Program-made: the position numbers and the translations under genes | Notes under the pieces: generated by a model | Told to the model about the DNA's origin: nothing | The model's input: the letters and a program-made list of their open reading frames with translations, nothing else | Databases searched by the model: none | In this document: piece after piece, positions 5,684 through 47,180 of the stretch | Position numbering within the stretch: the first letter of the stretch is position 1 | How the letters are laid out: the number at the start of each line of letters is the position of its first letter | From: Aquificaceae bacterium | Lineage (GTDB): Bacteria > Aquificota > Aquificia > Aquificales > Aquificaceae | Direction of reading: 5' to 3' | Assembly (NCBI GenBank): GCA_025062075.1 | Contig: JANXBA010000046.1 | Coordinates: 1 to 60,006 of the forward strand | DNA length: 60,006 bases

Positions 5684-6522
5684 AAAAGTACTTAGAGCTC
5701 ACCCGCTTTGAGCACACTCTTTTTGCCTTGCCCTTCGCCCTTGCCAGCGTGGCCTTGCTCTATGAGGATGTGCCCTCCCCGTGGAAACTTTTCTGGGTGC
5801 TTTTGGCCTTCGTCAGTGCCAGAAGTGCAGGCATGGCTCTAAACAGGCTCATAGACCTGCCTATAGACAAGCTAAACCCGCGCACGAGAGACTGGGTCCA
5901 CAGCAGAGGCGAGGTGTCCGAGGAGGGGATAAAGAGGTTTGCCCTTGTCTCTTCTGGACTCTTTCTGCTCTCTTGTCTTTTTATAAACCTCTACGCCTTT
6001 CTGCTGGCACCGGTGGTGCTCTTGCTCCTGTGGTTTTATCCCTACGCAAAGAGAGTTACTCACTACCCACATCTGGTTCTAGGCTGTGTCTACTTCTTGG
6101 TCCCTCTGGCGGTAGATGTCTCTTTCAATGAGAGAGTTTCGTTCAACGCAATCCTGCTTGGGCTGGCCATGGGCTTTTGGGTGGCAGGCTTTGACGTGCT
6201 GTACTCTCTCCAGGACTACTCCTTTGACAGGGAGCACGGCCTTAAGTCCATACCCGTAAGGTGGGGCATAGGGGGAGCTCTCCTCTTTGCCCGCCTCTTT
6301 CACTCTCTAACCTTTTTACTTCTCCTCTTGCTAACTTTTCGGGTTGACTTTCTGGGGCCAGTTTACCTCTTGGGTCTTCTGCTCATAGCAGGCTTTTTGT
6401 ACTATGAGCACAGGTTGGTAAAGCCGGAGGACCTTTCTATGATAAACAGGGCCTTTTTTACCGTGAACGGGTACGTGAGCGTAGTTTTTCTGGCGGTAGT
6501 GCTCTTGGAGAGACTGCTCTAA
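5680..6522 (+). CDS. UbiA-family prenyltransferase (4-hydroxybenzoate or MqnP-like)
   Basis: This integral membrane prenyltransferase of the UbiA superfamily attaches a polyprenyl chain to an aromatic quinone precursor. The 280-residue chain has 8-9 hydrophobic segments. The two metal-diphosphate motifs are seen as MALNRLIDLPIDKLNPRT (first motif, with Asn/Asp/Asp spacing) and FDVLYSLQDYSFDREHG (second motif). The N-terminal LTRFEHTLFALPFA is typical of the menaquinone-linked branch annotated as UbiA or MqnP. Sequence alone does not decide which substrate is used. It overlaps dapB by 4 nt. Together with the ubiE-like gene at 24581 it fits menaquinone-type quinone synthesis, consistent with what is known of Aquificales. 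Confidence 0.88.
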   Translation: MKKYLELTRFEHTLFALPFALASVALLYEDVPSPWKLFWVLLAFVSARSAGMALNRLIDLPIDKLNPRTRDWVHSRGEVSEEGIKRFALVSSGLFLLSCLFINLYAFLLAPVVLLLLWFYPYAKRVTHYPHLVLGCVYFLVPLAVDVSFNERVSFNAILLGLAMGFWVAGFDVLYSLQDYSFDREHGLKSIPVRWGIGGALLFARLFHSLTFLLLLLLTFRVDFLGPVYLLGLLLIAGFLYYEHRLVKPEDLSMINRAFFTVNGYVSVVFLAVVLLERLL

Positions 6523-7271
6523 AGGGCTACCTGCTCCATGACCTCCTTCGGGATGTCAAAGTTGGCCACCACCTCCTTTACGTCTTCCAGGTCTTCTAAG
6601 AGGTCTAAGAGCTTGAGGATTTTCCTCGCGGTCTCCGCGTCCTGGACCTGCACCAGCGTGTTGGGCTTGTAGGCTATCTCCGCCCTGTCCACCTGCAAGC
6701 CCAAGGTTTGGAGAGCTCCTTTCACGCCGTAGAGCTCCTCGGGCTTGGTGTACAGAGTGTAGGCAAGCTCGCCCACCTCTATGTCTTGCACCCCTGCCTC
6801 TATGGCCTTCTCGTAAAGCTCCTCCTCTGAGATACTCTCCTTCGGCACTTCTATTACGCCGACCCGCTCAAAGAGGAAAGAGACGCAACCTGAAGAGCCA
6901 AGGTTCCCTCCATGTTTGGAAAGCACGTGCCTTATCTCGGATGTGGTCCTGTTTCTGTTGTCCGTCTGGGTCAGTATCATGAGGGCCACACCGCCCGGGG
7001 CGTATCCTTCGTAGAGCACCTCCTCGTAGTTTTCACCGCCCAGCTCGCCCGTTCCCTTCTTTATGGCCCTTTCTATGGTTTCGGAGGGCATGTTCACCTT
7101 CCTGGCGTTTTCTATCGCAGTTCTGAGCCGTGGGTTCGTGTCCGGGTTAGGACCTCCTTCCCTTACCGCCACCGTAATTTCTCTGATGATTTTGGTAAAA
7201 ACCTTACCTCTTTGAGCGTCTATCTTGGCCTTCTTGTGCTTAATCTGAGCCCAGTGACTGTGCCCTGCCAT
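6519..7271 (-). CDS. yebC: YebC/PmpR family protein
   Basis: YebC-family proteins were first described as DNA-binding regulators; some members are now linked to translation of difficult sequences such as polyproline. The 250-residue protein begins with the family signature AGHSHWAQIKHKKAKIDAQRGK and contains GPNPDTNPRLRTAIENAR, GTGELGGENYEEVLYEGYAPGG, and NRTTSEIRHVLSKHGGNLG. The true start is ATG 7271; an upstream in-frame extension would run into trpE and is not family sequence. AAGGG lies 8 nt before this ATG, and TATAAT on the minus strand at 7290-7295 gives an 18-nt leader. The gene ends by overlapping the UbiA gene tail-to-tail by 4 nt. Confidence 0.95.
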   Translation of the reverse strand: MAGHSHWAQIKHKKAKIDAQRGKVFTKIIREITVAVREGGPNPDTNPRLRTAIENARKVNMPSETIERAIKKGTGELGGENYEEVLYEGYAPGGVALMILTQTDNRNRTTSEIRHVLSKHGGNLGSSGCVSFLFERVGVIEVPKESISEEELYEKAIEAGVQDIEVGELAYTLYTKPEELYGVKGALQTLGLQVDRAEIAYKPNTLVQVQDAETARKILKLLDLLEDLEDVKEVVANFDIPKEVMEQVAL

Positions 7272-35800: not shown

Positions 35801-38542
35801 TCAAAAGTGTAGCATGTAGCGCGTAAAGGGCTCCCAATAGGAGCCCCCCGTAGTCCTGAAGTTGGAAAACCTCCTGAAGCCTACAGAAAGTAGGTCTCTG
35901 TCCCACACTCGGCCCGTAAAACCTCCAGCAAGCCCGTAGCCAAAGCCAGCTCTAAGGTTGTAGTAGAGCTCTGAATCAAAAAAGGGCAGTAAAGGCCTGC
36001 TAAGGAGTTCTTTGCGATACAGCCCAAAGTTAAAGCCAAGACCTAGGGTCAGGCTGTCCTCAGGTAGCAGGCGTGGATTGGCAAAGGTAAAGAGTTTCAA
36101 GAGCTCTGGGCTGATTGGGGACTTCTCCTGGTAAAAGCCGAAGGAAGTGAACACTCTGAAAGTGTAGTCTGGATAGGCGTATCTGAGCCTGTGAAAGAGC
36201 TCTGCGTACCCTGCAAAGCCCTGACCTACGTGCCTTGCGTGAGTTGACTTGAAAAAGCTGTACTCAAGGCTGGAAGTGAAACCTATGCGGGGAGTAAAAG
36301 ACTCAAAGAGGCTCAGAGAAAAGCCGTCTTTCAGGAGGGCAAGCTGGGCGATGAGGCTCTCTACCGCAGGTCTGTTGTAGTAAGTAAAAAGGCTCACATT
36401 GTCAAGGCGAAAGAGCTTGCGGGAGATGCCTGCCTCCAAGCCTACAAAGTCTGACACGCCAGTGCCCACTCTTAGACCTACCTGGTAGTAGCCCCAGTTG
36501 GTGAGCCTTCTCAGGCTGAGACTATAACGGTGGTAAGAGGAGGGCAAGTTCCTAAAGGCAGGGTTCCGAGAGGAGGCGAGAAAACCGCCTTCGCCCGAGT
36601 AGAGAAGATACCACCTCTCCCCCAGCGCCTGTCTGAGAGAGAGCTCGTAGCTCAGGTAGTCAGTCTTCTCCAAGGCTCTGTAGCCTAAACCTACCTGCAG
36701 GCGGTTGCCGTGTTCGTGAGTGAGTTGTCTGAGTTGTTCGTAAACCAGAGCGTCCTCTGGGTTTTTCTCCAAACTTTGCTGAGCGTGCCTCATAGCCTCG
36801 CGCTTAAACCCTAACCTGCTGTAAGACTCCACCACGTCCCTGTAGGGCAGGACTTCTCTCATGTCTTCCAAGAGCTTGGCTATCCTGTCTCTGTCGTTGT
36901 TTCTGAGGGCAAGGCTCAGCTCCATCCAAGGCTTTAGTTCCAGGCGCTGTATGTGTTTGGCGTACTCCGCCCTTTCGTAGAAGGAGTTCACAAACAGGTA
37001 GCTCAGGTATATGTCCAGCCACTCCTCCGGCGTGAGCCTTTCCTTGCCTGCCGTGAGTGCCTCTTGGAGTTTTATCGCCGGCAAGATACCTATACCGCTC
37101 ATTAGTAGGAGCTTAAGCGTCTGTGGCTCTTCCGGAGCTTTTGCCTCCTTAGAGAGATTGCGTGCAAGGGCGGACCTTACCAGGTTGGCTTCCTCCGTCT
37201 TGCCCAAGACATAAAGAACGTGAGAGTAGAGTAGCAGGTCTTCCGCACCCTTGTCCTTTACCAAGTCCATGAGCTGTTTGGCCTTTTGTCCTTCCTGTCT
37301 TGCAAGGTAGAGGACGGCGAAGTCCCTTGGCAGGTTTTTCTCCTCCTTTGCGAACTTTCTCAGGATGTAGTCCGAGAGCTCCTTGTCGTTGTAGCTCACC
37401 GCTATCTGGATGCTGTTGGGCAAGGCCTGCTGGGCATCCTTTCCTTGGAGTGCCTGCAGGAGCAGTTCCCTGCCCTCTTTTCTCCTGCCAGAAGCGTACA
37501 GAGCTCTCGAGTACAGGAAAAGCAGGTAAGGGTTGGACAAGACCTTTTGTCGCTCGTAGAGCTCAAAGGCCTTCACTACACCTACCCAGTCTCTAAGGCT
37601 ACTCAGAGACTCTACCCAGAGAGTAAACAGGTACTCGTCACCAGTCTTTTCGTAGCCCTTTCTGGCGTATCTTACTGCCTTCTGGTAGTCCTTCAGGGCA
37701 GAGTAGTGGAAGTAAATTCTCACGTATTCGGGAGCTCCCGCCTTTCCCAAGCGGTCCAAGGCCTCTGCGGTTACTGCGGCAGTTTCTAAGTCTCTCATGA
37801 GCCAAGATATGGAAGACAGCCGTCGGTAGTAGGTAATCAGCAGGTCCTCTCTCTGGGTTTCTACCTTGTCAAGGTACCTGCGCAGGAGGTGGTAGTTCTC
37901 CTCCATTCTCCTCTGGGCAAAAAGCAGGTCTGAGTAGAGCAGTAGCTCGTGAAGCTTTAAAGGCCTCAGGCTTTCCAGCTCTTTAAGGTAGGACTCCGCT
38001 CTTTCTTTCTCTCCGTAGCTAAAGTCCGCCTGTGCAAGGTAGTACAGATAGTCAGGGTCTTTCTCTTTGATGTAGAGCTCCTGCACCACCTTCACAAATT
38101 CTTCAACTCTACCTGCGTTCACGTAGACAAAGTAGAGGTCTTCCACTTTCTGCTCTTTCAGGAGCTGTGGATATTTGGACAGCAAATCCACCGCGTAGTC
38201 GTACCTCTGCATGGACAGGGCTTGTCTGTACACTTCTGCGATGGTCTCTGGGGTAGGCCAGAGCTCTATGAGTTTTAGCTTGGCCTGCATGGCCTCTTCC
38301 CTCTGCCCCAACCACTCGCTTATCTTGCCGTACCACTCCCACCAGTATGGGTCTTCAGGGTACTCTTGAGCGCCCCTCTTCGCCACATCTAAGGCGTTCT
38401 TAAGGTCGTTAACCCCTAGAAAGGTGGAAAGAAAAAGCTTAAGGAGTTCCCTTCTGCTCTCCTTGGCCTGAGAAGGTTGAGAAAAGCAGGGAAAAGAGAA
38501 CAAGAGCAAAAGCAGTAGAAAAGAGCACATTCTGAGCGTCAT
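35801..38542 (-). CDS. pelB: PelB-like outer-membrane TPR/beta-barrel protein (C-terminal part)
   Basis: This is predicted to be the outer-membrane secretion channel for a Pel-type polysaccharide. The 913 residues begin with a signal peptide (TLRMCSFLLLLLLFSFPCFS). About 550 residues of degenerate TPR helices follow, for example AQQSLEKNPEDALVYEQLRQLTHEHGN. The last 300 residues show beta-barrel composition with alternating aromatic strands and a terminal Phe (RYMLHF). P. aeruginosa PelB has this order in one chain of about 1190 residues including an inner-membrane anchor; here the anchor and first TPRs are on the upstream gene. ATG 38542 overlaps that gene's stop as ATGA, and the signal peptide decides the start. 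Confidence 0.82.
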   Translation of the reverse strand: MTLRMCSFLLLLLLFSFPCFSQPSQAKESRRELLKLFLSTFLGVNDLKNALDVAKRGAQEYPEDPYWWEWYGKISEWLGQREEAMQAKLKLIELWPTPETIAEVYRQALSMQRYDYAVDLLSKYPQLLKEQKVEDLYFVYVNAGRVEEFVKVVQELYIKEKDPDYLYYLAQADFSYGEKERAESYLKELESLRPLKLHELLLYSDLLFAQRRMEENYHLLRRYLDKVETQREDLLITYYRRLSSISWLMRDLETAAVTAEALDRLGKAGAPEYVRIYFHYSALKDYQKAVRYARKGYEKTGDEYLFTLWVESLSSLRDWVGVVKAFELYERQKVLSNPYLLFLYSRALYASGRRKEGRELLLQALQGKDAQQALPNSIQIAVSYNDKELSDYILRKFAKEEKNLPRDFAVLYLARQEGQKAKQLMDLVKDKGAEDLLLYSHVLYVLGKTEEANLVRSALARNLSKEAKAPEEPQTLKLLLMSGIGILPAIKLQEALTAGKERLTPEEWLDIYLSYLFVNSFYERAEYAKHIQRLELKPWMELSLALRNNDRDRIAKLLEDMREVLPYRDVVESYSRLGFKREAMRHAQQSLEKNPEDALVYEQLRQLTHEHGNRLQVGLGYRALEKTDYLSYELSLRQALGERWYLLYSGEGGFLASSRNPAFRNLPSSYHRYSLSLRRLTNWGYYQVGLRVGTGVSDFVGLEAGISRKLFRLDNVSLFTYYNRPAVESLIAQLALLKDGFSLSLFESFTPRIGFTSSLEYSFFKSTHARHVGQGFAGYAELFHRLRYAYPDYTFRVFTSFGFYQEKSPISPELLKLFTFANPRLLPEDSLTLGLGFNFGLYRKELLSRPLLPFFDSELYYNLRAGFGYGLAGGFTGRVWDRDLLSVGFRRFSNFRTTGGSYWEPFTRYMLHF

Positions 38543-39597
38543 CTGAGGTGCACCTCCTTCAGCTCCTTGGCAACTTCCCAAGCCAGCCTCGGGTCTCCGG
38601 TGGCGTGAGCGGACTTAAGCACATAAAGCGCCATGTCTGTGTCCTTAGCAAACTCTCTGTAGTGAGACAGCATAAAGGCCCTTGCCCCTTCGTAGTCCTG
38701 TCTGGCAAAGTAGAGCTCCAGTATTTTTTTAAAAAGTGCCTTCCGCTGGGCGTAGCTCCTGCTGTTGACAAAGAGCCTTTTCTGCTCTTCTAAGAGAGTG
38801 CTGAGCTCTACGGGCGGAGCTTGAAGGACTACGCCGTCAGCAGTAGGCTGGGGGGCGCTCAAGCCACTGAGCACCTGCGCGTAAACGGCCTCCCCGAAGG
38901 CTCTTCTCAGGTATTGGAGGTTCTCTTCGCGCTTTTCGTCTTTGCCCAGCAAGTAGGTTATGTCCTTTATGTACTTGTCCTTTCTGGCCGGCTCTCTCTT
39001 GGAGAGCTCTGAAGCGTACAGGATGGCGTACTTCGTCTCCTGCAGGGCAGTGGCGTATCTGTAGGCTTCTCTCAGCCACTCCAGCTTTTCCTCCAACCTG
39101 TAGAGCTTCTCCGCCGACTGCATGACCACGAAGGGTAGGTTCATCTCTGTGGCGCTCTTCTTGATTTCCAAGATTAGTGCCCTGTCCTGGGTCAATTTGA
39201 GGGCTGCAAGGAGATACTCCTGCATGAGCTCCGTGCTTTTGTTCTGTCCTGCAAAGTACTTGTGCTTCTGTGCCCTGAAGAGGGCTAAGTAAGCTCTGTC
39301 TGCGTAGGGAGTGTTGAGCAAACTCCGGGCTTCCCTCTCCGCCTCCTGCACGTATCCTCCCTGCACCAGACTGTCCACCAGATGAAGCCTGAGGAGGGGG
39401 TCTTCCTGAATCTTGAGAAGGTTTCTCACGTAGAGAATGGAGAGCTCCACGTTGGCCCTTTCGGGGGCCAACACGTACTTTTCAAGCCTCCCCCGGGGAA
39501 AGAGCAGAAGACAAACTCCGAAAAAAAGAACTACATAAATTACCAGCTCTCTGTCTAAGAAAAACTTATCCCTTACAACGGGCTTCCAATTCTGCAT
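38539..39597 (-). CDS. Inner-membrane-anchored TPR protein (PelB N-terminal part)
   Basis: The 352 residues have one N-terminal membrane helix (ELVIYVVLFFGVCLLLF, about residues 17-33) with a basic N-terminus. The rest is a periplasmic chain of TPR-like helices: LLRLHLVDSLVQGGYVQEAEREARSLL, KLEWLREAYRYATALQETKYAILYASEL, RKALFKKILELYFARQDYEGARAFML. Alone it would be an unassigned TPR protein. It is placed between pelA and the barrel gene and is coupled to the latter by a 4-nt overlap. Its architecture equals the N-terminal third of P. aeruginosa PelB, so I infer that it is the missing half of a split PelB. It overlaps pelA by 32 nt. Confidence 0.75.
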   Translation of the reverse strand: MQNWKPVVRDKFFLDRELVIYVVLFFGVCLLLFPRGRLEKYVLAPERANVELSILYVRNLLKIQEDPLLRLHLVDSLVQGGYVQEAEREARSLLNTPYADRAYLALFRAQKHKYFAGQNKSTELMQEYLLAALKLTQDRALILEIKKSATEMNLPFVVMQSAEKLYRLEEKLEWLREAYRYATALQETKYAILYASELSKREPARKDKYIKDITYLLGKDEKREENLQYLRRAFGEAVYAQVLSGLSAPQPTADGVVLQAPPVELSTLLEEQKRLFVNSRSYAQRKALFKKILELYFARQDYEGARAFMLSHYREFAKDTDMALYVLKSAHATGDPRLAWEVAKELKEVHLR

Positions 39598-42319
39598 CTC
39601 TCTGTTCCCTGTAGCGGATGCGTAGGGCGTCTCCTGAGGTCTCTGCCGAGTAGCCCTTTGGGTTGAGGTTTATCTGACACTGAGGGGCTCGCACTTCCAG
39701 CTCCAGAGGCACGTGGGAGACCAACCTCAGTTTGTAAACACCCTGCTGGTAGCTGAAGTGTTTTACTCTACCGTTGGAGCTCACCAAGTTGAAGGAGGGA
39801 GGAGCTCCGGACAGAACGAGACGGTACTCTCCGGAAGAGTCCAAGTTTACGTAGGTGCGGTTCTCGTGGTGCCTGTAGCCTACCACGCCCTTGCTCTTGA
39901 GCATGTCCACGTGCACCTTGCCTTCTACCCTCAGAGTTCTGAGGTTTCCGCCACCGCGAATCAGAAGGTGGCCATCTACGGTATCTTGCAGAAAGGCGTA
40001 GTTTCTAAACTCCAACACCTTCTGGGCGTATTCGGACAGATACATAGGGTTCGTCTCCTGGGACATGGCCCAGTCGTAAACCTTTTTGAGGGCCTTCAGA
40101 GAGGATACCTTCTGGACGGAGTAGGTGTGGTAGTAGATGTTTATAGGCTTGATTCTGTAAGGTTTTTCAGTCATCTTAAAGGTGTCAATTACACGCACGA
40201 AGCCGTAGTAGCTAGTCCACATCTTGGTGTATATGTTCTCGTTGAGTATGGGGGCGTATATCTGAAAGTAGTCGCCCTTGTTCACGCCCATAGGACTTAT
40301 AAACATCCAGAAGGGGTCTTTTCTGTTTATCCAGGTGTAGCCTCCGTTCACGTTGTAGACGCCTGCCTCATAGGCCAGTCTGATGGCCTCCTCTGAGGGG
40401 TTGGTGTCCCCGGACCACAAAAGCACGACAGTCTTCTTACCCTTGGGGGCAAGCCTCTGGTTTATGTAGTCGATAGAGCCCTGTATTTCCCTACGCAGGT
40501 CAAATCGGTAGTTCTTTATGGGAAGGTTGTAGGTGACGGTCGGCTCGTACCTTTTGAGCCCTTTGCTGACCGCCTCTATGTCCTGCCACCTGTATGGGTG
40601 GGAGAAGGTGTGGGAAGCTATCTCCACGTTCTCAAGAGCAAAGATAGAACGGGCCACCTCTTCGAGCCTGGCGGACCTTTCGGGGTAGAGGCCGTGGGGG
40701 GCCACCTCTCCTTCTATCACGGAGAAGGTGTGGGGAATGGGGTAGGCTTTTATTATCTTGTCTCTGAGCACCTCCCCTAAGTTTTTGGAAGGCTCAAAGT
40801 CTGCGTCCCCAAAAAAGGCGTCGCCGTCGATGTGAACCAGCAGAATTCTTCTGCCTGTCTCGGTGGTCACGTCGGGGATGAAGGGCATCTCGCCAAAGAC
40901 CTTTCTAAAGAGCTCTACGGGCTCTACCGCAAACAGGGTGTGCTCGTCCTTTTGCACTAAAAAAGAGCCCGCAAGGGCATAACCACCCCAAGGGGTCACC
41001 GCCAGAGGGTAGAACTCCACGCCTCCTGAAGAGAGCTTCACGTAGGACTTTACCGAGTTTGGAAGGAGCTTTGGTATGTTGTCAAAGACGGGGTTTGTCT
41101 CAAAAAAGCTGAAAGAGCTCTCCTTTACCGTGTAGGGCTGTTTTCTGTACGTGCCTACCACTTTTATGTCAAAGTCTTTTAGGTGCCTGTTGTCTTCGGG
41201 AAAGCCGAAGGAGTTTAGGAAGAATATTTTTAGACCTTCTTCCTTCTTTTTGAGTAGCCACTTGTGGAGCTTGTCAGACCTGTGCGAGCCGGGCTCTACC
41301 ACTATACCTGCGTATATGTCCGCCATGAAGTAGGAAAGGCGGTCATCTTGTAGGGCCTTTTCTATCTCCATCAAGACGGGCACGTATCCCAAGTACTCCA
41401 GCCAGGGTTGCACAAATCTGCTGAGTTGGGTGTAAGAAGGGTCTGAGTAGAGCTTCTTGTCGTAGAGCATGAGTATTCTTCTGGGCACCAGTCTGTGATA
41501 GGACAGGCCCACTATGCGCAGGTATCTGTCGGACACGTAGGGAACAAAGCCCAGCTCTCTTATCCTGTTTGCTGTCTCCGTCTGGAGCTTTCTGTTGGTG
41601 GGCTCCACGTAGTCTATGACTATGACCTTGTAGCCTAACTGCTTGGCCTTTTTGAGCCTCTCAAGTAGCCACTGGGTCTCCTCGGGCTTCATAGGTTTGT
41701 ACTCCTTCTTCTGGTCGTAGGAGATGCCCCAGAAGAGGCTCTCCGCAACCATCGCATCCGCATGGCCCACCAGGGCCTCCATAACTTCAAAGCCTCTGTT
41801 GAGTAAGATGAGCTTGCCGGGGTAGGTCTGTCTGAGGGTCTTTACCAGCCTTATGAGGTTCTCCTGCACCTTTTTCAGGTCCCGCTCCTCCTTGAGGAAA
41901 AGCTGGTGGCTGTCCAAGGTATCCAAGAAAAAGCCGTCAAAGTCTTTTAGTCTGGGAAAGACGCGCCTCAGGAGAAAGTCCATGCACTCCTCTCTTCTCA
42001 GGTCAAGGACCATGGACTTCCAGACCTTGTTTTCTCCGAGCATGCACTCACCTTTTACCTCCTTGAAGTACTCCCTGTAGGGCTCTGCCTCACCCACGCT
42101 CACGTAGGCTACGAGCTTTGCCCTGCGGTTTTTCAGGTAGAACATGTTCATGACCCTCTTCGTATGGGGGCTGTCTGGGTCCACCACCAGCCAGTCAAAG
42201 GCGTACAGTGCCTCCTCGGGTATGGGGTCTCCGTATATCATAAAGCCCACGGACAGGTGCCTTTCCCTTGCCACCGCCAAGCTAAACAGTATGCATAAAA
42301 GTATAGTAATGAACCTCAT
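39566..42319 (-). CDS. pelA: PelA: glycoside hydrolase/polysaccharide deacetylase
   Basis: PelA trims and partially deacetylates Pel in the periplasm. The 917 residues (PelA of P. aeruginosa is about 950) start with a signal peptide (RFITILLCILFSLAVARE). Then comes a GH114/TM1410-like barrel, about residues 22-260 (FMIYGDPIPEEALYAFDWLVVD, LVAYVSVGEAEPYREYF, FDGFFLDTLDS). A middle region follows, then a deacetylase domain around 470-700 with ILLVHIDGDAFFG (metal/catalytic Asp pair) and IASHTFSHPYRW (HxxxH zinc motif). The last 180 residues are beta-rich. It overlaps pelG by 38 nt. Confidence 0.92.
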   Translation of the reverse strand: MRFITILLCILFSLAVARERHLSVGFMIYGDPIPEEALYAFDWLVVDPDSPHTKRVMNMFYLKNRRAKLVAYVSVGEAEPYREYFKEVKGECMLGENKVWKSMVLDLRREECMDFLLRRVFPRLKDFDGFFLDTLDSHQLFLKEERDLKKVQENLIRLVKTLRQTYPGKLILLNRGFEVMEALVGHADAMVAESLFWGISYDQKKEYKPMKPEETQWLLERLKKAKQLGYKVIVIDYVEPTNRKLQTETANRIRELGFVPYVSDRYLRIVGLSYHRLVPRRILMLYDKKLYSDPSYTQLSRFVQPWLEYLGYVPVLMEIEKALQDDRLSYFMADIYAGIVVEPGSHRSDKLHKWLLKKKEEGLKIFFLNSFGFPEDNRHLKDFDIKVVGTYRKQPYTVKESSFSFFETNPVFDNIPKLLPNSVKSYVKLSSGGVEFYPLAVTPWGGYALAGSFLVQKDEHTLFAVEPVELFRKVFGEMPFIPDVTTETGRRILLVHIDGDAFFGDADFEPSKNLGEVLRDKIIKAYPIPHTFSVIEGEVAPHGLYPERSARLEEVARSIFALENVEIASHTFSHPYRWQDIEAVSKGLKRYEPTVTYNLPIKNYRFDLRREIQGSIDYINQRLAPKGKKTVVLLWSGDTNPSEEAIRLAYEAGVYNVNGGYTWINRKDPFWMFISPMGVNKGDYFQIYAPILNENIYTKMWTSYYGFVRVIDTFKMTEKPYRIKPINIYYHTYSVQKVSSLKALKKVYDWAMSQETNPMYLSEYAQKVLEFRNYAFLQDTVDGHLLIRGGGNLRTLRVEGKVHVDMLKSKGVVGYRHHENRTYVNLDSSGEYRLVLSGAPPSFNLVSSNGRVKHFSYQQGVYKLRLVSHVPLELEVRAPQCQINLNPKGYSAETSGDALRIRYREQRDAELEARCKG

Positions 42320-43655
42320 GTAGAAACCTCCGCAGTAATACTACACCTACTGCAATACTCAGGAACACAGACACCGCAAAGCCGTAGCCGTAAAAGTAAG
42401 GTCCCAAGTGTATGCTGAGAAGACTGAGCGTTAGGTTGGAGACCGCAAATACCGCGGTAGTATAAAGGGCATACTTGAGCCTGTCAAAGTAGAACATAAG
42501 GGCCACCAAGCTGAGAAGAACCACCTGCAGAGAAGTCCCCAAAAGGAGGATGTTAAACAGGGGAATGTAAACCTTGGGCAGCTTGAAGAGGGTAAAAAGT
42601 GGCTCCTGAAGTATCACTACGAATATACTGAATATGAACTGAATCCTAAAAGTGTCCAGAAGCACCCTTCTGGCAGCCCTTATAAGCTCGTCCCCGTAGA
42701 GGTATATTCTGTCCAAGGTTGCCCCTTCTTTGACCGCCTTGTAGTACCTGTCGTAGTGTTCCGCAAACTCCCACTCCACCTTCAAAAACATGGCGGATAT
42801 CCCAGGCGCTATGGACAGGTAGGCCAGGAAAATCGGTATGTCGTAAACCACCGAGTAGTTCAGAGGTCCCAAAGCCGGGGTGCTCGTGTTGGGATTGTAC
42901 CAGAAGACCAACTTGTCTGCCCACAGGCCAAAGTTGTAGATAAATCCCGTAATTATCAGATTTCTGTACTTTTCCTCCTTCAGAAAGTCAAAGGACAGAA
43001 GGGTGTTTGAGTAGTAGTTTCTCAGTATGTACGAAATAAGCAGAGAAAACAGCAAGGAGTTAGACAGAGCAAAGGCAGACATAAGGCCAAACAGACCAAA
43101 GTAGACGAGCAGAAAAGACAGGGCAATAAAAAGCAGATAGCTCACCGCATAGGAGAACAGGATGTACTTGTAGCTCTTGAAGCCGGTAAGTATGGTATTC
43201 AGAGTCCACAGACCCATCAGGACGGTAAAAGAGAAGTTAAACGCCATAGCAAAGAGATAGCCTGTATGAGGTGCGAGCACGAACATACTGAAGAAGAAAG
43301 ACAGGACAAAACCCACCGACATGTTTATCAAAACCGCCCCCATCATGTTGGGGATTATGCTTTCCGTCCTCTTTAGGAATATCGTGTCCGCCAGAAAACG
43401 GATAAGGTAAAGAGTGCTAAAACCGCTCAGTATCAGACTAAAAGCTACGAGGTGGGTTACCGCAACCTGAAACTGGGTCAACTCTTCCCGCCTCTCTACA
43501 AAACTGTAAGCGAAGAAGTTAACCAGTATCAGGGACATGATGGTTATAAAGTAGGGTCCAGAGCTCAGGGCAAAGGAGTAGCCGAAGGCGGCCACTACTG
43601 CGGACAAACCCCTCTTTCTGAGAATCTTCTTCAGTTCAAAAGCTATGCCTGCCAT
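42282..43655 (-). CDS. pelG: PelG: Pel polysaccharide membrane transporter
   Basis: PelG is the polytopic inner-membrane protein, distantly related to MOP flippases, that works with PelD/PelE/PelF in polymer synthesis and export. The 457 residues match the 456 of P. aeruginosa PelG. AGIAFELKKILRKRGLSAVVAAFGYSFALSSGPYFITIMSLI is the family start, followed by about 12 hydrophobic helices and WNPNTSTPALGPLNYSVVYDIPIFLAYLSIAPG, a signature of PelG. ATG 43655 was chosen for this start; the longer in-frame version lies over pelF. It overlaps the pelF stop by 13 nt. Confidence 0.93.
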   Translation of the reverse strand: MAGIAFELKKILRKRGLSAVVAAFGYSFALSSGPYFITIMSLILVNFFAYSFVERREELTQFQVAVTHLVAFSLILSGFSTLYLIRFLADTIFLKRTESIIPNMMGAVLINMSVGFVLSFFFSMFVLAPHTGYLFAMAFNFSFTVLMGLWTLNTILTGFKSYKYILFSYAVSYLLFIALSFLLVYFGLFGLMSAFALSNSLLFSLLISYILRNYYSNTLLSFDFLKEEKYRNLIITGFIYNFGLWADKLVFWYNPNTSTPALGPLNYSVVYDIPIFLAYLSIAPGISAMFLKVEWEFAEHYDRYYKAVKEGATLDRIYLYGDELIRAARRVLLDTFRIQFIFSIFVVILQEPLFTLFKLPKVYIPLFNILLLGTSLQVVLLSLVALMFYFDRLKYALYTTAVFAVSNLTLSLLSIHLGPYFYGYGFAVSVFLSIAVGVVLLRRFLHEVHYYTFMHTV

Positions 43656-45151
43656 GTTAGATACTTTTTGTAGAGCTGTCTGTAGTTTTCCAGAAAGTCC
43701 TCCTTTGAGTAGAATTTTCTCACTCTGGTGAGTGCACTTTTCTGGCACCCTCTCCACAGGGATTCGTCGGTAAGGAGCTTTGCGTAGCTCTCCGCCAGAA
43801 GATTGGCGTCGCGCACCGGTGCAATCTCTCCTGCCTTGCCGATGGCCCTGTCCTCCTCGTTCAAACCGCCGTATATGAGCTGTCTGCAAGAGCCCACGTC
43901 AGTAGCCACGCAGGGAACCCCCGCAGCAAACCCTTCCAGCACTATAAGAGGCATGCCCTCACTGATGGAAGTAAGGGTCAGCACCCCTACCTTAGGCAGT
44001 ATCTCTACCGTCTTTTGAAAGCCGAGAAACTTTACCTTGTTTTCCAGCCCCATCACTTTCAGGAGCTCCAAGCACTCTTTGTAGTACTCTGGGTCTTCGT
44101 CGGTGGGACCTACTACCCACCCTTCCGCCTCAGGCACCTTTTGCACCAACAGCTTTATTGCCTTTATGAAGGTCTTTACATCTTTGATGGGCACCACTCT
44201 ACCTATGAGGGCCACCACCTTTGGAACGCCTTCGGGACGCTTCTCCAGAGCCTTTGAGTAGAGCTGTAGGTCTACTCCGTTAGGTATGACCCTGCACCTT
44301 TCTGGGTCCGCACCGTAGCTTATCTGTATCCTTTTGGCATCTTCAAAAAGGGATATAATCACGTCCGCCTTTGAGTAGGCTACGCCTCCAAGCCTGAAGA
44401 AGAAGTTAATCCAAACCTTCTTGGTGCTGGACATATCCCCCGAGCTTTTGTGTATGTAGAGCCTTTTGTCCTTCAACCAGTCCGCACCGAGCAGGTCTAT
44501 TTTTCTCTCTCGCGTGTATATGCCGTGCTCCGTGAGTATAAATGGCTTTTTTCTACTGGTTTTTAGCAGGGCGGACAGGAAGCCTGCGTAGCCGGTGGAG
44601 GGACTGTGCACGATGCCAAAATCACCCACCTTGGTGGCCACCTCCGAGACCACCCATAGAGGGGCGTGAAGGTTCCTCACGTTCCAGAAGTAGTCCATGA
44701 AAGACTCGGTCATGGCATACCTGGAGTACATGTGGGTTATGTGCTCCCAAGCTCCCTTGCTGTAGAGGAAGTCTTCGTACTTCACTGTCTTGGTTAAAAA
44801 CTCCGGACTTAGAGCGTCTTCTGGGACGCCTCTGTTTTCCTTGAAGCCTATGTGCATTTCGGTGATGTGCTTGAAAACCTTTTCCTTATCCTCTATGTAC
44901 TTTGGTTTAGGTTTTTCTCGCTCTTCAAAGAGGTACGCCACCGCAAGGTAGACTAAGTTGTCTGGCAGGGTGTACCTTATGTCTCCGTAGTCCTGGGCCC
45001 TACCCCCTAAAAAGACCACCCCAAAGGAAAAGTCTTGCAGGCCGTTTACCAAGTCGTGTATCCAGGTGGAGACGCCCCCCCTTATGTAAGGGTAGGTTCC
45101 TTCAGCCACCAGCAGGACCTGAGGTCTGCCTTTATCAATCAGAACCTTCAT
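43643..45151 (-). CDS. pelF: PelF: Pel glycosyltransferase (GT4)
   Basis: PelF polymerises UDP-sugar (UDP-GalNAc in P. aeruginosa) into Pel. The 502-residue chain agrees with the 507 of the reference. VLLVAEGTYPYIRGGVSTWIHDLVNGL is the PelF signature at the N-terminus. FGIVHSPSTGYAGFLSALLKT, RCRVIPNGVDL and VALIGRVVPIKDVKTFIKAI are GT4 segments, and ISEGMPLIVLEGFAAGVPCVATDVG holds the catalytic EX7E and donor-binding residues. It is soluble and cytoplasmic by sequence. The start ATG 45151 overlaps the PelE-like gene by 17 nt. Confidence 0.94.
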   Translation of the reverse strand: MKVLIDKGRPQVLLVAEGTYPYIRGGVSTWIHDLVNGLQDFSFGVVFLGGRAQDYGDIRYTLPDNLVYLAVAYLFEEREKPKPKYIEDKEKVFKHITEMHIGFKENRGVPEDALSPEFLTKTVKYEDFLYSKGAWEHITHMYSRYAMTESFMDYFWNVRNLHAPLWVVSEVATKVGDFGIVHSPSTGYAGFLSALLKTSRKKPFILTEHGIYTRERKIDLLGADWLKDKRLYIHKSSGDMSSTKKVWINFFFRLGGVAYSKADVIISLFEDAKRIQISYGADPERCRVIPNGVDLQLYSKALEKRPEGVPKVVALIGRVVPIKDVKTFIKAIKLLVQKVPEAEGWVVGPTDEDPEYYKECLELLKVMGLENKVKFLGFQKTVEILPKVGVLTLTSISEGMPLIVLEGFAAGVPCVATDVGSCRQLIYGGLNEEDRAIGKAGEIAPVRDANLLAESYAKLLTDESLWRGCQKSALTRVRKFYSKEDFLENYRQLYKKYLTWQA

Positions 45152-46148
45152 GCCTAGGCTCCCAAAAAACCTTCAAGTAGTATAGGGCAGGGTTGACAGA
45201 GTATTTGAGATACTCCGCACTTTCCCTGAAGATTTCCTTCACCTTATCGTAGTACCCCATACCGAAGTAGGCCTCCGCCAAGTAGGGCATATACCGTGTA
45301 GGATGCACGTTGTTGAACTCTTTTGCCTTTAGCAGAGCTCTCTCCGCCTGCGGATAGTTTCCTCTTGCGAGCTCAATCTTGCCCATGTGTATGTAAAATT
45401 CTGCGTTCTCCCTCTTCTCCATCGCCTGCATTAGGTACTCCTCCGCCTTCTTCAGCGTGAGCCTTTCCAACTCCTTGTCCAGTATGCCAAAGTAGACCAA
45501 GTCGTAGTAGCTCCGCGAAAGGTCGTACAGGAGGAGAACCCTTTTGTCTTCTGAGTCCTCCTCTTCAAGCCTCTGGATTAGGGCGTTTATCCGGTCCTGG
45601 ATGGACTTTTCTAACCTAAGAAGCGTAGAAAAAACAGAGAGTCTAAGCTCGTCGTGCTCGCCACTTACAACTCGGGAAACGTAGGCCAAAATGCGAGGAT
45701 TTTCTGCGTCAACAATGAGGGAAGATATGGAGCTCAGCTTTTGTTCGCTGACGCCACTTAGCCTGTTTAGTAGGTACAGAGGACCTTCACCAAAGGTGTT
45801 CGTCTTTAGAACGATGTTGCTCATGAAAAGCTCTTCTACGGAGAGAGTTTCCACGTCTAGAAAGGTTTCGGCCTTCTGTCTCCTTAAGAGATACAAAGTC
45901 ATCACCAAGAGCATGATGTAGCCAGGTACGAACAGAAAGAAGCCCAGAGAGGTTAGCAACAGGAAGGCTTTTAGCCTGTTTTTCTTGTAGCGCTTTGGCA
46001 ACAAAGTCTGCAAGAAAGAAGCCACCAAACCACAGGCAAAGGCATGAATCATCAGTATCATGAGCACATGGCGCAGGTCGTTCACATGGAAGAACATACC
46101 TACTACCGCAGTCTCCAACAGGATGGAATAGAGAATGTTCTTACCCAC
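45135..46148 (-). CDS. pelE: PelE-like membrane TPR protein
   Basis: The 337 residues (PelE of P. aeruginosa has 329) have three to four hydrophobic helices in the first 90 residues (YSILLETAVVGMFFH, VLMILMIHAFACGLVASFLQTLL, AFLLLTSLGFFLFVPGYIMLLVMTLYLL). A helical region and C-terminal TPRs (AEFYIHMGKIELARGNYPQAERALL) follow. PelE anchors the PelF/PelG synthase; the N-terminal ET...HAFA pattern and position directly before pelF support the assignment, but identity is modest by eye. No degenerate GGDEF (PelD) segment is present. The start is GTG 46148. TATATT (46161-46166) lies 12 nt upstream with AAGG near, so it may have a short leader. Confidence 0.75.
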   Translation of the reverse strand: MGKNILYSILLETAVVGMFFHVNDLRHVLMILMIHAFACGLVASFLQTLLPKRYKKNRLKAFLLLTSLGFFLFVPGYIMLLVMTLYLLRRQKAETFLDVETLSVEELFMSNIVLKTNTFGEGPLYLLNRLSGVSEQKLSSISSLIVDAENPRILAYVSRVVSGEHDELRLSVFSTLLRLEKSIQDRINALIQRLEEEDSEDKRVLLLYDLSRSYYDLVYFGILDKELERLTLKKAEEYLMQAMEKRENAEFYIHMGKIELARGNYPQAERALLKAKEFNNVHPTRYMPYLAEAYFGMGYYDKVKEIFRESAEYLKYSVNPALYYLKVFWEPRHEGSD

Positions 46149-46205: not shown

Positions 46206-47180
46206 ATGGGCGATAAGTTTCCAGAAAAAGGCCAAGAGAGGGCGGTAGACTACGAGGAGATAGACCTGCTAGAGCTCCTGCTAATTCTGTGGAAGAGCAG
46301 AAGACTCATACTCTTGTTAACTCTGACCTCCGCGCTTTTGGCCTTTTTGCTTGCGGTGATTGTGCCCAAGACCTACACCTCCAAGTCCGCATTAGCCCCA
46401 GTGCCCAGAGGCCTTAGTGACTCTGCCATTCTTCTCTCTATTTATGCAAACGCTCCCGTGACCATTGATTTGGAATCCTCAGAATTGGACATAAAGCGTA
46501 CTCTTAAAAGCTACGAGCTCAGCATGAGAGTGATAAGAGAGCTGGGGCTTGAGAGGGAGCTCAGGACCCGCAGTAGACAAAGCCCAGAAGAAATCTTGGA
46601 AAGGTTCAGAGACAGAGTTAAGATAGTGCACAGGGAAGGCGTGCTGTTTATATCAGTGGAGTGGAACGACCCAGATAAAGCCAAGAGAATTAACGAAAGC
46701 ATCTTAAAAAACCTCAACCTTTTGCTCAACGAGAAAAAGACGGAGAGAATCAGCTACTACACATCTATCTACGAAAAAAAGCTTGAAGAGATTGGCAAAG
46801 AACTTGCGGAAAAGACGGGCAGGCTCAATAGACTTCTGGATAAAAAGACTGTAAGCGCCGGCCACCCTAACGTCTCTTTGGAAGGTCTTTACTTGCCACC
46901 TGGTTTAGGCGGGGAGAAGTTGGTAGAGTACGTAGACACTTACCTGCAAATAGTGGACCTTATGGAAAAGCAAAGAAGGCTGAGCTTACTGCTGGAAAAG
47001 ATGAGGATGATGACCGCAAAAGAGATTAAACAAGTAGAGATTATTCAGCCCGCTTCCTACCCCACCAAACCATCAAGGCCACAGATACCTTTGATGGTGA
47101 CCGCCGGCCTCGTAGCTGGCTTCGTGTTCTCTGTGTTTGTAAGCCTACTCAAGCACTCCCTAAAGAGCAAAAGAAGATGA
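46206..47180 (+). CDS. Wzz-type polysaccharide chain-length/co-polymerase protein
   Basis: The 324-residue inner-membrane protein has the polysaccharide co-polymerase layout. An N-terminal cytoplasmic segment is followed by a first membrane helix with EIDLLELLLILWKSRRLILLLTLTSALLAFLLAVIVPKTYTSKSAL, a periplasmic coiled coil (about residues 150-260), the Pro-rich IQPASYPTKPSRPQIPLMVT and a second helix (GLVAGFVFSVFVSLL) ending in basic residues. Wzz proteins control O-antigen or capsule chain length. Here it is divergent from pel rather than next to O-antigen genes, so a role in Pel chain length is a hypothesis. It overlaps nadD by 4 nt. Confidence 0.87.
   Translation: MGDKFPEKGQERAVDYEEIDLLELLLILWKSRRLILLLTLTSALLAFLLAVIVPKTYTSKSALAPVPRGLSDSAILLSIYANAPVTIDLESSELDIKRTLKSYELSMRVIRELGLERELRTRSRQSPEEILERFRDRVKIVHREGVLFISVEWNDPDKAKRINESILKNLNLLLNEKKTERISYYTSIYEKKLEEIGKELAEKTGRLNRLLDKKTVSAGHPNVSLEGLYLPPGLGGEKLVEYVDTYLQIVDLMEKQRRLSLLLEKMRMMTAKEIKQVEIIQPASYPTKPSRPQIPLMVTAGLVAGFVFSVFVSLLKHSLKSKRR

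Follow-up and report, generated by a model that had tools for sequence, protein, structure and literature searches.

Genes for a complete Pel exopolysaccharide system appear to lie at two loci, split between pelE and pelC, in an Aquificaceae genome

Several residues and regions of the Pel proteins have been assigned functions. In PelD of Pseudomonas aeruginosa, R367, D370 and R402 are each required for c-di-GMP binding and for pellicle formation (PMC2170427). The PelBC complex depends on Trp149 of PelC (PMC12141448), repeats 9-14 of P. aeruginosa PelB bind PelA, and the hydrolase and deacetylase residues of PelA have been functionally assigned (both PMC12022489). A 2020 study (PMC7112194) described fission and rearrangement of PelB in aquatic thermophiles; thermophile PelB homologues (PMC12141448) and full-length PelA in Aquificota (PMC12022489) followed in 2025. 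Our literature search found nothing specific on Pel or c-di-GMP in Aquificales.

The window analysed here is a stretch of 60,006 nucleotides from an Aquificaceae bacterium (contig JANXBA010000046.1). It carries six minus-strand genes, running from 46148 to 35801, which overlap or abut in the order given below. A flanking gene closes the list.

45135..46148, minus strand: pelE; 337 aa, transmembrane helices at the N terminus followed by TPR-like helical repeats; GTG start
43643..45151, minus strand: pelF; 502 aa, GT4 glycosyltransferase, presumed Pel polymerase; NF038011 PelF equivalog
42282..43649, minus strand: pelG; 455 aa, polytopic inner-membrane exporter; PF16933
39566..42319, minus strand: pelA; 917 aa, periplasmic hydrolase and deacetylase; full-length match to 9cgy
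38539..39597, minus strand: PelB N-terminal part; 352 aa, one transmembrane helix and a helical-repeat rod
35801..38542, minus strand: PelB C-terminal part; 913 aa, signal peptide, TPRs, outer-membrane beta-barrel; PF24604
34938..35798, plus strand: flanking gene on the pelB side, common to relative G038; thiol-disulphide-type protein, its family assigned by sequence reading

A sequence-only reading of this stretch had described a minus-strand unit encoding PelE-, PelF-, PelG-, PelA- and PelB-type proteins, and family tests bear it out. PelF scores 608 bits against a cut-off of 100 for the equivalog-level family NF038011 and PelG 387 bits against 29 for PF16933; the PelB barrel is also above its cut-off (see below). 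The alignment of PelA with the solved P. thermotolerans protein (9cgy, E=1.2e-133) spans almost the entire length of PelA. In this alignment the hydrolase residues D133 and E193 and the deacetylase residues D498, D500, H570, H574 and H731 are identical to the catalytic residues, all seven of those checked being kept. PelE, which sits ahead of pelF, gives weak TPR matches in Pfam. A profile built from Aquificota PelE sequences matches the ORF at the PelE position in nearly all named Pel loci, other phyla included, and the AF2 model of the protein is helical (pLDDT 75). The polymer made would be Pel. The reading of the locus as a Pel operon from a thermophilic lineage is thus supported; the earlier gene list needs correction for PelB, which is encoded here as two proteins.

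The genes for the two PelB parts are joined by an ATGA overlap. The C-terminal part matches the PelB barrel family PF24604 at 99.5 bits (cut-off 31) and TPR families as well. Its search against solved structures returned a designed repeat protein as the sole match, so that the barrel assignment rests on PF24604. The N-terminal part has no Pfam match. Its position is conserved across loci, a profile made from it also matches the N-terminal part of fused PelB in many loci, and its AF2 model is an all-helical rod (pLDDT 84). Alignments place the break at about residue 276 of a fused Atopomonas protein and, in P. aeruginosa PelB, near residue 281, ahead of the region matching the PelA-binding repeats 9-14. 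From this position, the anchored N-terminal part would presumably take the polymer at the inner membrane, with the secreted C-terminal part holding PelA, PelC and the barrel. Among the named relatives fetched, a split PelB is no rarer than a fused one: of 54 scorable named loci, 32 have split and 22 fused genes. The split form occurs also in Campylobacterota, Geobacter, Rhodoferax and relatives of Alcanivorax. With these counts and the published thermophile cases, the fission was rejected as a novelty. In two Thermocrinis MAGs (L062, L064) and in genome G052 (L053), the gene for the PelB barrel is found upstream of pelC, and the N-terminal part sits at the opposite end of the cluster; the PelB halves are therefore separable in the genome.

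The sequence-only reading had presented the operon as lacking pelC and pelD and proposed that either control differs or the missing parts lie elsewhere, a pelC or pelD gene elsewhere in the genome being the outcome that would count against it. The absence stands for the operon and the window. It does not stand for the genome: a PelD profile search of the window's own genome (G000) led to a region of contig C35, designated L044, in which both genes lie together. Parts located elsewhere are thus confirmed, and altered control finds no support.

G000:C35:15818-16363, plus strand: pelC; match to solved PelC, lipobox, equivalent of Trp149
G000:C35:16338-17699, plus strand: pelD; PF16963, match to solved PelD, c-di-GMP residues

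The two plus-strand genes overlap. The C35 PelC matches solved PelC (5t0z, E=9.6e-21) and the P. aeruginosa protein (9h80, E=7.3e-20); it has the lipobox LVSC, and its W155 aligns with Trp149. The PelC profile search of the genome found no second copy. PelD scores 33.9 bits with PF16963 (cut-off 27) and matches solved PelD (4etx, E=7.3e-8); the PelD_GGDEF family has one match above cut-off in the genome, at C35:17301-17612. In the alignment, R365, D368 and R396 of this protein correspond to R367, D370 and R402 of the P. aeruginosa receptor, so that the RxxD motif and the second arginine are kept (3 of 3 residues). All seven predicted Pel proteins are encoded in the genome, and the predicted set is complete. 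Since pelC and pelD are present on C35, the usual c-di-GMP switch would still be encoded. Contamination was considered as the source of the two genes and rejected: GC contents are similar (54.4% and 53.3%), the tree is congruent with that of the operon, and the flanks are common to G038.

The genes very probably specify a complete, c-di-GMP-responsive Pel system that occupies two loci, split by a single breakpoint between pelE and pelC. The presence, order and integrity of the genes, their key residues and their synteny are established in the sequences. The two loci would together build one machine. To it the window would contribute PelE, PelF and PelG as synthase and exporter of the inner membrane; PelA would deacetylate and trim the polymer in the periplasm, and the two-piece PelB would carry it out. 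From the C35 locus would come PelC, the lipoprotein ring of the outer membrane, and PelD, the c-di-GMP receptor by which synthesis is switched on. An ancestor presumably had pelE and pelC side by side and divergent, and one chromosomal break between them would have produced the present arrangement.

Synteny across the phylum agrees with this scheme. PelG is above cut-off in 48 of 136 phylum genomes. Of the Aquificota with PelG, 45 were tabulated, and in 37 of these the location of pelD is canonical: same strand as pelG and upstream of it by the canonical distance. The eight others comprise four members of the window's genus (G000, G038, G040 and G043) plus four with the genes on different contigs or without a PelD match, so that the clear exceptions all belong to the window's genus. 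Within it, G039 retains the canonical order C-D-E-F-G-A-Bn-Bc; in G043, C-D faces an E-F-G-A-Bn-Bc block, and in G040, G-A-Bn-Bc is inverted relative to C-D-E-F. In G038, pelE and pelC are adjacent and divergent. The pelB-side flank gene of G038 corresponds to the window's 34938..35798 gene (BLASTN, 74.7% over 747 bp), and the genes after pelD are the same in G038 and on C35. Because G038 combines pelCD beside pelE with the outer flanks of both loci, the separation is accounted for by a single break between pelE and pelC. The PelE-F-G-A-Bn tree unites G000, G038, G041 and G043 at full support, in agreement with the PelC-D tree. The pelCD pair thus shares the inheritance of the other pel genes and does not stem from contamination.

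Several further observations concern the genus and the breakpoint. The minus strand of L044 has, upstream of pelC (6484-6819), a short frame beginning MPKEPIKQQVVKKVKEVIDYL that meets a stop and seems to resume beyond it; this is perhaps a small gene that decayed at the rearrangement breakpoint. In the 94% complete assembly of G041 (L049), pelE-F-G-A-Bn is present and no PelC or PelD was found, reflecting either loss or an assembly gap. The Pel locus of RFFP01000022.1 (L058), a record titled Acidobacteria bacterium, matches that of G040 (contig C32) in the window's genus; the record is probably a mislabelled MAG. One might also picture the pel cluster of the genus as a set of shufflable modules (CD, EF, GA-Bn-Bc), with pelCD under its own promoter and the switch and ring regulated apart from the synthase, although we consider this unlikely.

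Could pelCD truly adjoin pelE, the two contigs having been misassembled at that junction? The draft assembly consists of 66 contigs, and relative G038 has the adjacent arrangement. However, pelC begins 15.8 kb into C35, about 8 kb of that contig remain beyond pelD, and pelE runs on into unrelated genes on C56, neither gene set being at a contig end. Misassembly would need both junctions to be wrong and is decidedly improbable. Next to pelE, in the place that pelC has in G038, lies a divergent plus-strand gene for a Wzz-type chain-length protein (46206-47180, 57 bp off). Its presence hints at another pathway, and the operon could in principle make a different polysaccharide. Against this, the genome has the full set of seven Pel proteins, PelF matches at equivalog level, the active sites of PelA are intact, and a wzz-like gene accompanies pel in no relative examined, leaving this explanation very little probability. 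The gene has only remote matches in the genus (up to 34% identity), none of them beside pel, and it was rejected as an eighth Pel gene because it is not conserved there in the relatives examined. Finally, a Pel system functioning without PelC and PelD under different control, as suggested by a window with no pelC, pelD or GGDEF gene, can practically be dismissed given that intact copies of both genes, with functional residues kept, lie in the same genome and follow the same tree as the operon.

A genome-wide GGDEF search placed the three GGDEF proteins of this genome on contigs C15, C4 and C57; the window has none, as the sequence-only reading had stated. Motifs were read from the sequences. 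One protein (616 aa) has GGEEF preceded by the I-site RDYD, another (276 aa) GGDEF preceded by the I-site RSSD, and the third (586 aa) combines an N-terminal EAL-type region with GGDDF. The genome also encodes one PilZ protein. Predicted c-di-GMP-making enzymes are therefore present, a c-di-GMP-breaking enzyme is probably present, and the Pel machine may well be under c-di-GMP control. On C15 (17380-20186), an epimerase-like gene, 37% identical to a gene near pel in G079, is followed on the same strand, after 44 bp, by the gene for the GGEEF protein; this pair is a possible link between UDP-GalNAc supply and c-di-GMP.

These results remove a false exception, in that Pel in this organism is not free of PelC or PelD, and a c-di-GMP-switched Pel machine appears to be complete in a thermophile phylum. 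When a gene is absent from an operon, the whole genome should be checked before altered control is claimed. The window's genus also offers a small natural series of operon break-ups. Among the other loci collected, those of Nitrosospira (L101, L107, L109, L112) have pelD immediately after pelB, and a search with the PelC profile, made at those loci only, finds no PelC; they are better candidates than the window for a Pel operon without pelC. The loci L087, L092, L102 and L132 (Helicobacteraceae, Sulfurimonas, Sulfurospirillum) carry, after the gene for the PelB barrel, a second PelA-like gene.

Compared with pelABCDEFG of P. aeruginosa, the present system encodes the same seven proteins and keeps the PelA catalytic residues, the PelD c-di-GMP-binding residues and the PelC tryptophan, but differs in gene order, in having PelB as two proteins and in the separate location of pelCD. 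It shares with other Aquificota Pel loci the split pelB, the position of pelA after pelG and the gene set. In most Aquificota (37 of 45 tabulated), in contrast, pelCD lies directly upstream of pelE, whereas here it is detached. The Gram-positive pelDEADAFG system of Bacillus cereus (PMC7112168, PMC13254593) has a synthase core with PelD, as here, while the present one has in addition the outer-membrane components PelB and PelC and a two-domain PelA. The system in the window is a known kind of Pel system with a local rearrangement.
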